This document shows positions 1 through 52,767 of a stretch of 55,516 nt of DNA, one piece after another. Each line of letters starts with the position of its first letter. The first letter of the stretch is position 1. The stretch lies in contig JAUQWO010000008.1 of assembly GCA_030835135.1 (NCBI GenBank), forward strand, positions 1 through 55,516, given 5' to 3'. The stretch is from Bacteroidota bacterium (GTDB lineage: Bacteria; Bacteroidota; Ignavibacteria; UBA10030; UBA6906). The notes under the pieces were generated by a model that was not told where the DNA came from, did no database searches, and saw only the letters and a program-made list of their open reading frames with translations. The position numbers were made by a program, and so were the translations under genes.

Positions 1-2450
1 GCCTGACTCGTCTGCTCCTGCGCCCCCGCGGCCATCTCCTCCGTGCTCGAGCTGATCTGGCTCGAGGCGCTCGCCGTCGCGCTCACCGCTTCACTTACCT
101 TCCGCAACGCCTCCTGCAGCGACCCGCCCACCTTGTTGATGCTCTCCTTGATCAGCTGCAGGTCACCACGGTAGTCCCCCTGCATCCGCGCCGTCATGTC
201 GCCCGTCGCCATCACCGCCAGCGTGTTCGACCCTTCCTGTACCGGCTTGATCACCGCATCGAGCGTCTCGTTCACCCCCTGCACGATCTTCCGGAAATCC
301 CCCTGGTGCTTGGACGCATCGGCCCGTGTGGCAAGCCGCCCGGCCACCGCTGCCTGCGAGAGCATCACGGCATCGGCCACCAGTGCGTTCACCGCACCGA
401 TCGCCTGGTTCAGGTTGTTCTTGATCTCATTGAAATCGCCATGGTAGCTGTCCGTGATCGTCGCCGGGATGTCGCCCTTGGCAATGCGGTCCACGTACTC
501 CGCCGCCACATTGAGCGGCCCGATCACCGAGTCCAGCGTGTCGTTCACCCCCTGCACGATCTTCCGGAAGTCGCCCTGGTGCTTCGATGCATCGGCACGC
601 GTGGCGAGCTTCCCTTCCACTGCTGCGCGCGAGAGCATATGAGCATCGGCCACGAGCATGCTCACCGCGTCGATCGCCTGGTTCAGGTTGTTCTTGATCT
701 CGTTGAAGTCGCCGTTGTAGTTGTCGGTGATCTTCGCCGGGATGTCGCCCTTGGCAATGCGGTCCACATACTCCGCCGCCACGTTCAGCGGTCCGATCAC
801 CGAATCCAGCGTGTCGTTCACGCCCTGCATGATCTTGCGGAAATCGCCGCCGTGCTTCGACGCATCGGCCCGTGTGGCGAGTTTGCCTTCCACCGCCGCC
901 TTCGACAGCATACCGGCATCGGCCACGAGGAAGTTGATGGCATCGATGCAATGATTGAGGTTGTTCTTGATCTCATTGAAGTCGCCGTTGTAGGTGTCGG
1001 TGATCTTCGCCGGGATGTCGCCCTTGGCAATGCGGTCCACGTACTCCGCGGCCACATTGAGAGGACCGATCACCGCATCCAGGGTATTGTTGAAGCCTGC
1101 GAGGATCGCGCGATAGCCACCCTGAAACTTCTCCGCATCACTTCGAACCGACAGTTTTCCTGCAATGGCAGCACCTGTCAGCCGTGCTGATTCGCGCTCG
1201 AGCTCCTGTAATTCGGTGAGTGCGCGCGCGAGTGCCTGACCCAGCACATCCCGGTCCGTCCGCTGCGTCACCGTGATCGAAAGATCGCCTTCAGAAATGC
1301 GGCGTGCAGCTTCGGCGCGCTCACGGGATGCATCGAGGATCGCTGTGAACGACCGCGAGAGGCTGCCAATTTCGTCCTGGCCCATGTCCGGGATCGAGAT
1401 CGACACATCTCCCTGTGCCAGCTCATCTGCGGCGTGCACCAGTATGCCGACCGGGCGGACGATAGAGCGGCGGATCAGCATCGCTATCAAGCCACAGATC
1501 AGCACCGCGACCACGCCGCCGGCAATGAGGATGCTCGTCCGGGCAGAGGAAATGATAGCATCCACATCGGATCGCGGATACCCGATCACAACGCTGTACC
1601 CCCAAGGGTCGAAATCGGTGTGTTCGACGACCCACTCGGCGGACAGGGATGCATCGGCGACCGCAAGGTTCTGGATGATCTCGACCGGCACGCCTTTCGT
1701 GTAGAAGCGCGCCTTGTCCTTTGCATCGACAAGGGCGACAAAGCCACCCTGGAGGATGCGGGTCTGCTCTATCGTCTTCCCGAGCTCATTGAGTGTGGAT
1801 ATCGGGTACCCGACATACCAGATGCCGATGACCTCCCCGGTCCGTGCACGCATCGGTTCATACTGCGTGAAGTATGGCTCTCCCAGGATGTCAACGACCC
1901 CCGAGAAGGACCGCCCCTCGCGGATCGCAACGATGGCCTTTCCCTTGGGATCGAGCACCGTGCCCACTGCCCGCGATCCATCCGGCTTGAGGACATTCGT
2001 GGAAACGCGGACATAATCCTCCCCCCGGCGCACGAAGATGGTTGCGGTGCTTCCCGTCAGCGATTTCACACGGTCAACAAGTCCCGACGCATTCACCTGG
2101 CTGCTTCCCCCGAGGAGAAGCGACGGTACCTGCTCTGCCCCCACCCGGGCGGTCCCACCGAGACCCGGTGCACCGATCCGCTCCCCCTCGGCACGCAGTA
2201 CGCCCATCGCGACCTCAACACGCTGCTTCATCAGGCTATGCGTGGATGCGAGAACGTTCAGTGCCTGTTCCGATCTCGCATGAACGAGTTCGGTCGTACT
2301 TGTCTGTATCTGTTCACTCACATAGTTCGAAAGGAGTAATGCACATACACCCACAGCGGTCAGAATGATGAGAGCGGTGGGAACGATGAATTTGGACATG
2401 ATGCTTGACATCATGAACGCACTCAAGAATCGTCGCACAGTCGGCCTCAT
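1..2450 (-). CDS. methyl-accepting chemotaxis protein with tandem HAMP-like repeats (3' end outside window)
   Basis: Inner-membrane chemoreceptor that would sense a ligand outside the membrane and control a CheA kinase. The reverse strand is open from about 2450 to the left edge, giving about 816 residues. In order: a basic N-terminus (MRPTVRRF), a membrane segment (about 20-44), a Cache-type extracellular domain (about 45-295, with YVGYPISTLNELG), a second membrane segment (about 300-323), a HAMP domain, then three near-identical 91-residue HAMP-like units (core AAEYVDRIAKGDIPAKITD), a more divergent unit, and the start of the signalling helix (ISSSTEEMAAGAQEQTSQ). The signalling tip and stop lie outside the window. 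The start is uncertain: ATG at 2450 gives the basic N-terminus, while ATGs at 2414, 2411 and 2399 are alternatives. None has a good Shine-Dalgarno site. A terminator-like hairpin lies 22 bases upstream. The family is clear; the ligand is unknown. Confidence 0.92.
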   Translation of the reverse strand, partial: MRPTVRRFLSAFMMSSIMSKFIVPTALIILTAVGVCALLLSNYVSEQIQTSTTELVHARSEQALNVLASTHSLMKQRVEVAMGVLRAEGERIGAPGLGGTARVGAEQVPSLLLGGSSQVNASGLVDRVKSLTGSTATIFVRRGEDYVRVSTNVLKPDGSRAVGTVLDPKGKAIVAIREGRSFSGVVDILGEPYFTQYEPMRARTGEVIGIWYVGYPISTLNELGKTIEQTRILQGGFVALVDAKDKARFYTKGVPVEIIQNLAVADASLSAEWVVEHTDFDPWGYSVVIGYPRSDVDAIISSARTSILIAGGVVAVLICGLIAMLIRRSIVRPVGILVHAADELAQGDVSISIPDMGQDEIGSLSRSFTAILDASRERAEAARRISEGDLSITVTQRTDRDVLGQALARALTELQELERESARLTGAAIAGKLSVRSDAEKFQGGYRAILAGFNNTLDAVIGPLNVAAEYVDRIAKGDIPAKITDTYNGDFNEIKNNLNHCIDAINFLVADAGMLSKAAVEGKLATRADASKHGGDFRKIMQGVNDTLDSVIGPLNVAAEYVDRIAKGDIPAKITDNYNGDFNEIKNNLNQAIDAVSMLVADAHMLSRAAVEGKLATRADASKHQGDFRKIVQGVNDTLDSVIGPLNVAAEYVDRIAKGDIPATITDSYHGDFNEIKNNLNQAIGAVNALVADAVMLSQAAVAGRLATRADASKHQGDFRKIVQGVNETLDAVIKPVQEGSNTLAVMATGDMTARMQGDYRGDLQLIKESINKVGGSLQEALRKVSEAVSATASASSQISSSTEEMAAGAQEQTSQ
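195..1105. repeat. tandem 273-bp in-frame repeats in the chemoreceptor gene
   Basis: The same stretch (reverse complement of gatgtcgcccttggcaatgc) recurs at 468, 741 and 1014, exactly 273 bases apart, which is 91 codons. Three units are nearly identical at DNA level and a partial, more diverged unit flanks them. Each encodes a HAMP-like helical pair. The near-identity suggests recent duplication or ongoing homogenisation. Confidence 0.85.
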
Positions 2451-2460
2451 GGTTGTTGAT

Positions 2461-2513
2461 CAGAAAGACAAAGGTGCCCCTGCGTCCACCAGACTCCATG
2501 ACGCAAGGGCACC
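2461..2513 (-). terminator. intrinsic terminator or attenuator just upstream of the chemoreceptor
   Basis: Arms 2500-2513 and 2473-2486 form 14 continuous pairs in minus-strand RNA, with one G-U that would be a C-A mismatch in plus-strand RNA. The loop is 13 nt and is followed by TTTGTCTTT on the minus strand. Both the wobble pair and the T-rich tail point to minus-strand transcription. It lies 22 nt before the chemoreceptor ATG at 2450, so it either ends transcription from upstream or attenuates the chemoreceptor transcript. Confidence 0.7.
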
Positions 2514-2565
2514 CCCTCTTCTCACGCATCACGAACAATCGCAAACTTCGTACCACGAGACCATC

Positions 2566-2594
2566 GATGTAACCGCGGATCGGCCGGAACGCAA
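2566..2594 (-). promoter_or_regulatory. candidate promoter for the chemoreceptor leader
   Basis: On the minus strand TTGCGT (2594-2589), 17 bases, then TACATC (2571-2566), which fits the TTG/TAnnTT pattern seen elsewhere in the window with one mismatch. Predicted start is near 2559, giving a leader of about 110 nt that contains the hairpin at 2473-2513. No other promoter was found between the hairpin and the start codon. Confidence 0.35.
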
Positions 2595-2989: not shown

Positions 2990-3814
2990 CTAGAACGTGT
3001 AGATCACCGTCACGCCTTCTGGTCCCGGAACGATGCGCAATCCCAGGGCGCTCTCCGGGGCCATGCGAGTGTCATACCATTGCAGCAATGAATGCGTGAT
3101 CGCCATGGAGAGCACCGCACTGAACACACAATCGGAAAACCAGTGTTCACCTGCGTATACTCTGGACAGCGAGGTCATTGCAGCGAGCGTATAGAGACCG
3201 GCCGTTGCCCAGCCGTTGCCGATCCGGTGCGCGAGTACCGTCGAAAGGGAGAATGCTGCGGCTGTATGGCCGGAGGGGAAGGAGTGGTGGTCATCATCCG
3301 CGGCGAAGATCCGGAAACGTCCGGGTCCCTCGAGCGTGTAGGGTCGCGCACGGCCCGCGGTGTGTTTCAACAGCTGGGTGGCACCGGCGGTCAGGATGAG
3401 CCCGGTGCCCGCAAGGAACGCGGTCTCACGCACCCACCGGTCGCCCGTGAAAAGTCCCGTGGCATACGAACCCCCGCACAGCACGGCGAGCACCCACACT
3501 TCGCCGTACTGGCGCACAACGGATTCCAGCCGATCGCCTGTCCGGCCACGGAAGCTCCTGAAGGCAGCGGACATATCATCATCGCCCAGGGCAACGACGC
3601 CGGTACCGAGCACAAGGCTGCCGGCTTTGCCGATATCCTGTCCGTTCCACCGCGCGGGTGCGCTGCCGATGAAGAGGAATGCGTTCCAGAACGTGCCGGC
3701 GTCCTGCACGATCGTGGCATTCCAGCGGGCGGACGCACGCGAGCTGTCGGTCTGGGCAGCAACGCCGGCATGACAGACCATGACCACCACCAGGAGCATT
3801 CCGGTCATCTGCAT
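2990..3814 (-). CDS. PAP2-superfamily phosphatase, exported or membrane-associated
   Basis: 274-residue member of the type 2 phosphatidic acid phosphatase / vanadium haloperoxidase superfamily, whose relatives dephosphorylate lipid or undecaprenyl phosphates on the outer side of the inner membrane. All three signature motifs are present in order: a K-x6-RP type block (KHTAGRARP), PSGH (SFPSGHTAAAF) and SR-x5-H-x3-D (SRVYAGEHWFSD). The N-terminus (MQMTGMLLVVVMVCHAGVAAQ) looks like a signal peptide. I prefer ATG at 3814 over an upstream TTG at 3832 because the signal peptide starts there. It diverges from the helicase gene with 77 bp between. Substrate unknown; it could be a lipid A, PG-phosphate or undecaprenyl-PP phosphatase. 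Confidence 0.85.
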   Translation of the reverse strand: MQMTGMLLVVVMVCHAGVAAQTDSSRASARWNATIVQDAGTFWNAFLFIGSAPARWNGQDIGKAGSLVLGTGVVALGDDDMSAAFRSFRGRTGDRLESVVRQYGEVWVLAVLCGGSYATGLFTGDRWVRETAFLAGTGLILTAGATQLLKHTAGRARPYTLEGPGRFRIFAADDDHHSFPSGHTAAAFSLSTVLAHRIGNGWATAGLYTLAAMTSLSRVYAGEHWFSDCVFSAVLSMAITHSLLQWYDTRMAPESALGLRIVPGPEGVTVIYTF

Positions 3815-3891
3815 ATCTGGATGATAGCACAAAAACCGATGAAAATACAGATGGGTGGCAAGCGGCCACCGTTTTCCGTACCTTGCTCATC

Positions 3892-6356: not shown

Positions 6357-6429
6357 TTGTTCCTCGCTCGCCATGCCCCATTCTTCGTCCCCCACTTCCT
6401 TGCGTCCTCATCCTTTCTTCTTCATCGTT

Positions 6430-6458
6430 TTGCTCCCGACCCTGCCTTTTCGTACATT
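6430..6458 (+). promoter_or_regulatory. promoter of the histidine kinase-rodZ-ligA operon
   Basis: TTGCTC (6430-6435), 17 bases, TACATT (6453-6458). Only 5 bases separate the -10 from the ATG at 6464, so the predicted start falls on or next to the start codon and the message would be leaderless. Confidence 0.5.
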
Positions 6459-6463
6459 TTAGC

Positions 6464-36887: not shown

Positions 36888-36895
36888 AGAGTTTG

Positions 36896-36924
36896 TTGCT
36901 TCGACACAGGGGGCTACGTATATT
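36896..36924 (+). promoter_or_regulatory. promoter of the alpha/beta hydrolase
   Basis: TTGCTT (36896-36901), 17 bases, TATATT (36919-36924), then 5 bases to ATG 36930. A leaderless transcript is predicted. Confidence 0.55.
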
Positions 36925-36929
36925 GGCGT

Positions 36930-37841
36930 ATGACCGTTCTCGCCGCCATACTGCTGTTCGTTGTCCTCTTCATGGTGTTCATCTCCATGGTACTCCTGGT
37001 CATCGGTCCGGTGATGCTCCTGCAACCGAACCGGCGGACGATCGAGTACTACCGGAAGATCACCACGGTCCTGCACCCTTCCGACCTCGGCCTGACGCAC
37101 GAAGAGCTGACCATCACCAGCGCCGAAGGCATTCCGTTGCACTGCTGGTTCATTCCCGCACGGGGCACGGCCCGCGGCACGGTGATCTTCCTGCACGGTG
37201 TGAGCGAATGCGTGATCGTCGGACTCCCCGTGGCGCGGCATCTCCATGATGCCGGCTTCAACGTCTTCCTCTACGATTCACGCCGGCATGGCGACAGCGG
37301 CGGGCGCTTCTGCACCTACGGTTTCTACGAGAAGCACGACACGTCCACCATGATCTCGTATCTGGAGGGCAGGAAGGATGTGCACATCGGGAAGATCGGA
37401 TTGCTGGGTTCCTCGATGGGGGCAGCGGTGGCGATCCAGGTGGCTGCGCTCGATCGGCGGGTCTCCAGCGTGCTGGCCGAAAGCGGGTTCGCGACCCTCC
37501 GCACGGTGTACGACGAATACCAGAAGCGGATCATCAAGGTCCCCTGGCACTACCTCCGCAACATCGTCATCAAGCGCTCGGAACATATCGCGCACTTCAA
37601 GGCCTCGGCCGTGTCGCCCCTGGAAGCCGTCCGCAAGGTGCATGTGCCGGTCTTCTTCATGCACGGCACCGCGGACAATCTGATCAAGCACGTGTACACG
37701 GAACGCGTCTTCGCGAACGCGAACGAACCGAAGGAACTCTGGCTCATCGACGGTGCCCGCCACAACAACATGGCGGAGGTGGGAGGGGGTGAGTACTTCC
37801 GGCGGATCGTGGAATTCTTCGACAGGACACTTAATAATTAA
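36930..37841 (+). CDS. membrane-anchored alpha/beta hydrolase
   Basis: 303 residues. N-terminal membrane helix (about 2-29), then an alpha/beta hydrolase fold: oxyanion region VIFLHGVSE, nucleophile elbow GSSMG (Ser near 148), acid in HGTADN, and His in GARHNNM. YfhR/Bem46-like serine hydrolases show this layout; substrate unknown. The frame extends upstream through the neighbouring gene, but the promoter places the start at 36930. Its stop codon lies inside a long palindrome. Confidence 0.85.
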   Translation: MTVLAAILLFVVLFMVFISMVLLVIGPVMLLQPNRRTIEYYRKITTVLHPSDLGLTHEELTITSAEGIPLHCWFIPARGTARGTVIFLHGVSECVIVGLPVARHLHDAGFNVFLYDSRRHGDSGGRFCTYGFYEKHDTSTMISYLEGRKDVHIGKIGLLGSSMGAAVAIQVAALDRRVSSVLAESGFATLRTVYDEYQKRIIKVPWHYLRNIVIKRSEHIAHFKASAVSPLEAVRKVHVPVFFMHGTADNLIKHVYTERVFANANEPKELWLIDGARHNNMAEVGGGEYFRRIVEFFDRTLNN

Positions 37842-37867
37842 GAACTAAGAATTCTTAGTTCTTAATT
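37836..37867. terminator. 32-bp perfect palindrome between convergent genes
   Basis: AT-rich sequence with two-fold symmetry centred between 37851 and 37852 (centre GAATTC). It covers the hydrolase stop codon and almost fills the 36-bp gap to the convergent DUF5916 gene. As RNA it would fold with a minimal loop on either strand, so a bidirectional terminator is possible. It ends in T-rich sequence both ways. Confidence 0.6.
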
Positions 37868-52742: not shown

Positions 52743-52767
52743 AAATGGGAGTCCTTTTGTCCCATTT
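52743..52767. promoter_or_regulatory. 8-bp inverted repeat over the rrf2 -35
   Basis: AAATGGGA (52743-52750), 9 bases, TCCCATTT (52760-52767): a perfect dyad covering the -35 hexamer (52757-52762). Position suits a repressor operator. Confidence 0.6.

Follow-up and report, generated by a model that had tools for sequence, protein, structure and literature searches.

A predicted sigma-54 promoter and a terminator-like 5′ hairpin precede a chemoreceptor gene in an Ignavibacteria genome

Results

The window analyzed here is a whole contig of 55,516 bp from a 4.9-Mb genome with 62% G+C; genome statistics other than pattern searches were taken from a 715- to 753-kb sample of that genome. A chemoreceptor gene runs off one end of the window, and a PAP2-family phosphatase gene lies upstream of it on the same strand, with the following features at and between the two genes.

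Positions 1 to 2450, minus strand: chemoreceptor gene (Pfam, translation), its 3′ part beyond the contig edge
Positions 2461 to 2472, minus strand: T-rich tail TTTGTCTTTCTG, directly after the stem
Positions 2473 to 2513, minus strand: 5′-UTR hairpin, 14-bp stem with one G-U pair and a 13-nt loop (2499-2487)
Positions 2541 to 2555, minus strand: predicted sigma-54 (RpoN) -24/-12 promoter TGGTACGAAGTTTGC (pattern, matrix, RpoN)
Positions 2566 to 2594, minus strand: sigma-70-like pair TTGCGT-17-TACATC of the first-pass annotation, a possible weak second promoter
Positions 2990 to 3832, minus strand: PAP2-family phosphatase gene

Pfam assigned a Cache_3-Cache_2 sensor, a HAMP domain, and four HAMP_2 stretches to the chemoreceptor, the signaling tip of which lies past the contig end. 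Within the gene, 273-bp tandem repeats (249-1082) encode repeated HAMP_2 units. Similar receptors end at the contig ends of C77, C78, and C83, and the repeats probably broke the assembly at these receptor contig ends. Part of the interval that separates the PAP2 gene from the leader is taken up by a G+C-rich tandem repeat with a 55-nt unit in four degenerate copies (2742-2968), which we rejected as a dispersed element because it occurs at one genomic place only.

The chemoreceptor had been annotated with an ATG at 2450. That codon does lie exactly 22 nt past the hairpin, but its use as the start is doubtful. Codon scoring and the N termini of homologues, in which a short stretch separates the Met from the membrane segment, favored a start at 2414 or 2411. 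A start at 2450 would give a more basic N terminus, contrary to this choice. Translation more likely starts at 2414 or 2411 than at 2450, which would put the hairpin ~58 nt ahead of the start codon; the distance from hairpin to start is 22 to 59 nt, depending on the start chosen.

The sigma-54 site at 2555-2541 lies inside the region covered by the first-pass annotation but was overlooked there; we first recognized sites of this kind by reading the upstream regions of other chemoreceptor genes. The site is near consensus, with GG at 2554-2553, GC at 2542-2541, and 10 nt between them. TGGTACGAAGTTTGC departs from TGGCAC-N5-TTGC by a single change (C to T), which is common to the sites at L161 and L162; these two and L142 are three further chemoreceptor or chemotaxis loci with sigma-54 sites. 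Genome-wide, the pattern TGGYACN5TTGC had 22 matches, 18 of them intergenic although only 8.2% of the DNA is intergenic (binomial P, ~1e-16), and 17 sit 13 to 164 nt before a same-strand gene. The whole-genome count itself was not enriched (22, versus 33 for the reversed pattern), so the evidence from the pattern is one of placement. A matrix built without the window site (leave-one-out) gave this site a score of 17.6, which was reached by 0 of 2,000 shuffles of 2451-2989, and matches scoring at least 15 in 753 kb comprised 11 intergenic and 0 genic sites. The genome also encodes RpoN (one Sigma54_DBD, 187 bits) and has ~20 strong matches to Sigma54_activat, the domain of the activators. A sigma-54 promoter for the chemoreceptor at 2555-2541 is thus well supported by sequence. 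By the standard rule that sigma-54 transcription begins 12 nt after the GC, the transcript is predicted to start near 2529.

The promoter proposed earlier, the pair at 2594-2566, ranked first among the sigma-70-like sites of the leader but is weak, with three plus three consensus matches. A scan of the leader for the sigma-70 consensus reported nothing, this pair included. A two-block promoter model that had learned from 297 of the genome's upstream regions, with the window gene left out, recovered TTG(A/C) - 17 nt - TA(T)(A/C)TT and gave the pair a score of 9.1, a value equaled by 2.5 to 2.7% of shuffles. As the promoter, the sigma-54 site is better supported than this pair. Two other candidates were rejected: between hairpin and start, the best sigma-70-like or leaderless promoter (2427-2396; score, 7.4) overlaps the candidate starts and is therefore unusable, and the Bacteroidota-type TAnnTTTG promoter did not fit here (only 8 matches in leaders versus 3.8 expected).

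Promoter searches also turned up features elsewhere. The window contains another strong sigma-54-like site, TGGCACGTGTTTTGTATTT at 52767 on the plus strand; the gene that follows it after 34 nt has a start like that of an Rrf2-type regulator. For 13 of the 87 sample genes with a promoter scoring at least 9, the -10 block ends just 3 to 6 nt before the start codon (these include 6429-6460, 36895-36926, and 23849-23818), which suggests that their mRNAs are leaderless.

The hairpin was as first described, with 14 pairs and a T-rich tail. On the minus strand, the arms GGTGCCCTTGCGTC (2513-2500) and GACGCAGGGGCACC (2486-2473) enclose the loop AUGGAGUCUGGUG, which holds an ANGGA core; the single imperfect pair is G-U on the minus strand and C-A on the plus strand, and additional G-U pairs extend the hairpin to 2516/2470. 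Its predicted stability is -28.1 kcal/mol over 14 bp, and 12 of the 14 stem pairs had a pairing probability of 1.0 in the predicted transcript fold. Stems reached at most 12 pairs when 2441-2640 was shuffled 400 times with dinucleotides preserved, so the 14-pair stem is beyond chance; it is single copy in the genome, which rules it out as a dispersed repeat. The claim of a strand-specific terminator also held, with a d'Aubenton-Carafa d score of +29.5 on the minus strand versus -29.0 on the plus strand. For 98 hairpins that directly follow a stop codon on their own strand, d exceeded 20 in 16 and 30 in 8, and the window hairpin falls within the range of the genome's gene-end terminators. Stems of at least 14 pairs in 715 kb were intergenic in 37 of 43 cases, many of them just past stop codons. 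Two features are atypical of a terminator in this genome: the loop, given that loops of 3 to 7 nt were found in 31 of 32 strong intergenic terminators of the genome sample, and the tail TTTGTCTTTCTG, which is interrupted and able to pair with the purine-rich 5′ flank GAAGA.

In the sample, only 5 of 90 promoter-bearing leaders held a terminator-grade hairpin, and several genes of the genome begin 23 to 37 nt past a terminator-like hairpin. Other leaders with the order promoter, terminator, gene in the sample are at C45:172668 and C12:229041, one of them before a gene with a LepA-like start. The remaining sigma-54 leaders that we examined in the genome held no hairpin of this kind, which places the window hairpin outside any sigma-54 leader class. 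The leader of the sigma-54 chemoreceptor gene at L142 (contig C11) has arms GACGCAG/CTGCGTC ~34 to 88 nt after the start of the sigma-54 site; both words also form part of the window stem, but in the opposite order. The two words were considered as an operator common to the sigma-54 promoters of chemoreceptor genes, but they recur only at L142, with the arms swapped. Palindromes of other kinds are present in the genome: an A+T-rich perfect palindrome, AATTAAGAACTAAGAATTCTTAGTTCTTAATT (37836-37867; also C12:206126-206158 and C12:66912-66950), has relatives elsewhere, and a second family, AATTCAGATATC..., occurs at C45:220070, C45:396433, and C12:196430. Both are families of dispersed palindromic repeats in this 62% G+C genome.

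With a start near 2529, the hairpin would lie at ~+14 to +57 in the transcript, and an RNA terminated there is predicted to be ~65 nt long, nearly all of it hairpin, rather than the ~95 nt proposed before. Only ~13 nt precede the hairpin in the sigma-54 transcript, too few to hold a known aptamer or antiterminator; from the sigma-70-like start the distance would be ~45 nt. As the first-pass annotation had found, the leader matched no known riboswitch; an Rfam 15 scan at the gathering score gave no match in the window. The 5′ arm had no competing partner that could make an antiterminator (78% of shuffles did as well or better). A 26-amino-acid frame at 2602-2522 was rejected as a leader peptide, as its codon score was noncoding; it begins upstream of both predicted transcription starts. 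Other small frames on the minus strand were likewise rejected by noncoding codon scores, and a plus-strand frame (2365-2604) had a weakly positive codon score and no Pfam match.

Conservation of the leader in related genomes, which had been put forward as a check, was not found. No match to the leader DNA was obtained in 40 relatives, and neither of two genomes from the same genus showed the stem conserved through paired changes. We identified 15 homologues of the chemoreceptor in 391 genomes of the class, and none of the 15 leaders carried either the hairpin with a T tail or a sigma-54 site, so the two elements are without evolutionary support. The only homologue from the same genus has a longer N terminus and sits behind a CheW-like gene. 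Conservation therefore supports neither a riboswitch nor regulated attenuation, nor a dedicated small RNA.

Discussion

Sigma-54 promoters of chemotaxis genes have precedent: in Geobacter sulfurreducens, nine sigma-54 sites were predicted before che, mcp, or flagellar operons (PMC2577667). There, as here, a -24/-12 element lies in noncoding DNA before a chemoreceptor gene; the present case differs in belonging to the class Ignavibacteria and in having a terminator-like hairpin between +1 and the gene (PMC2577667). Premature, or 5′ Rho-independent, terminators were cataloged by Naville and Gautheret in 2010 (PMC2965389), who defined them as lying in the gene's orientation, within 300 nt of its start, and nearer to that start than to the upstream gene. 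The window has a stable hairpin with a T-rich stretch on the gene's strand, 22 to 59 nt from the downstream start versus 473 nt from the PAP2 gene, a geometry that is ordinary among 5′ terminators (PMC2965389). In other respects it stands apart: it is far more stable than known 5′ terminators, which average -16.5 kcal/mol and 7 bp, and it has a 13-nt loop, no family-wide recurrence, and no antiterminator (PMC2965389). The word “chemotaxis” does not appear in the main text of that survey.

We hypothesize that the sigma-54 promoter at 2555-2541 drives the chemoreceptor gene and that a terminator-strength 5′ hairpin in its mRNA lowers or gates read-through, a reading to which we give about an even chance. 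Transcription would begin near 2529, and the first 70 nt of the mRNA would fold into the stem-loop, with a U-rich stretch behind it. A sizable share of the transcripts, both those initiated at the sigma-54 promoter and those reading through from upstream, would then end at ~2467-2461, and as a consequence the receptor would be made at a low or gated level. Of the earlier proposal that the receptor is controlled by premature termination, the termination itself is the leading physical reading, on the strength of the strand-specific score, the 22 to 59 nt to the start, and the 473 nt from the upstream gene; control by a sensed ligand or protein is without support. If efficient, a terminator of this strength (-28.1 kcal/mol, 14 bp) would nearly silence the gene, given that known 5′ terminators are weaker.

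It is also possible, though considerably less probable, that the hairpin does not terminate transcription at all and is instead a 5′-end structure that shields the sigma-54 mRNA from decay or offers its loop to an RNA-binding protein such as CsrA. The 13-nt loop, unlike those of this genome's terminators, would fit such a role, as would the interrupted T tail and the position of the hairpin ~13 nt from the predicted 5′ end. Moreover, the predicted fold leaves a GGA unpaired in its apical loop, within the ANGGA core, and the genome encodes CsrA. Leader hairpins bound by CsrA (reviewed in PMC7652899) likewise have a GGA in the apical loop and a CsrA gene in the genome; the window loop differs in lying off the ribosome-binding site and in being a candidate site with the motif core only. 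However, a GGA in a 13-nt loop is frequent by chance, no hairpin like it occurs in the other sigma-54 leaders that we examined, and a nonterminating structure leaves the strand-specific T tail unexplained. We regard CsrA binding to the loop as a lead only.

Somewhat less probable still is a purely passive role, in which the hairpin acts as a terminator or insulator against read-through of the PAP2 transcript or of RNA from the weak sigma-70-like site and so keeps the gene silent while the activator is off. A gene under sigma-54 control requires low basal read-through. The same-strand PAP2 gene upstream, the score of +29.5, and the genes that begin 23 to 37 nt past terminator-like hairpins all agree with this role, but such an element would sit downstream of the sigma-54 start and strike the gene's own transcript too, and it lies 473 nt from a PAP2 stop codon that has its own imperfect hairpin right behind.

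We think it quite improbable that the leader is the attenuator proposed at first, sensing a ligand or protein and toggling between termination and antitermination. The order of promoter, terminator, and gene is that of an attenuator, and its geometry fits that of published 5′ terminators (PMC2965389). Against this, the average 5′ terminator of that survey is much weaker than the window hairpin, which disfavors one that readily refolds. The leader has no Rfam match, no alternative partner for the 5′ arm beyond what 78% of shuffles provide, and just ~13 nt (sigma-54) or 45 nt (sigma-70) ahead of the hairpin, and the 26-amino-acid frame is noncoding and begins before both predicted starts. We found neither an antiterminator fold or sensing element nor recurrence before orthologues, and the leader is unconserved. 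Regulated attenuation is thus possible but unsupported, and a protein-gated mechanism without an antiterminator would be compatible with the sequence. The remaining suggestion, a stand-alone small RNA of 65 to 95 nt acting elsewhere, is the least credible: promoter and terminator do bracket a short transcript, but that RNA would consist almost wholly of the hairpin, leaving little sequence free; it is single copy and unconserved, and the downstream gene would have no recognizable promoter.

Returning to the sigma-54-driven mRNA with a terminator-strength hairpin, the arrangement is ordinary in kind once the promoter is corrected; within that kind it is unusual, but it stands alone and is unconserved. 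At least some chemoreceptor genes in this Ignavibacteria genome probably depend on sigma-54, the regulon of which is thinly described in the group, and the findings provide a concrete motif list of 17 promoter-placed sigma-54 sites. The terminator-like leader is a candidate second layer of control on a chemoreceptor. A further version, in which a protein bound to the 13-nt loop, such as CsrA, gates the transcript just past initiation by choosing between termination at ~+65 and read-through, seems to us a long shot; if true, it would join activator control of the promoter to the action of an RNA-binding protein at a single receptor gene.
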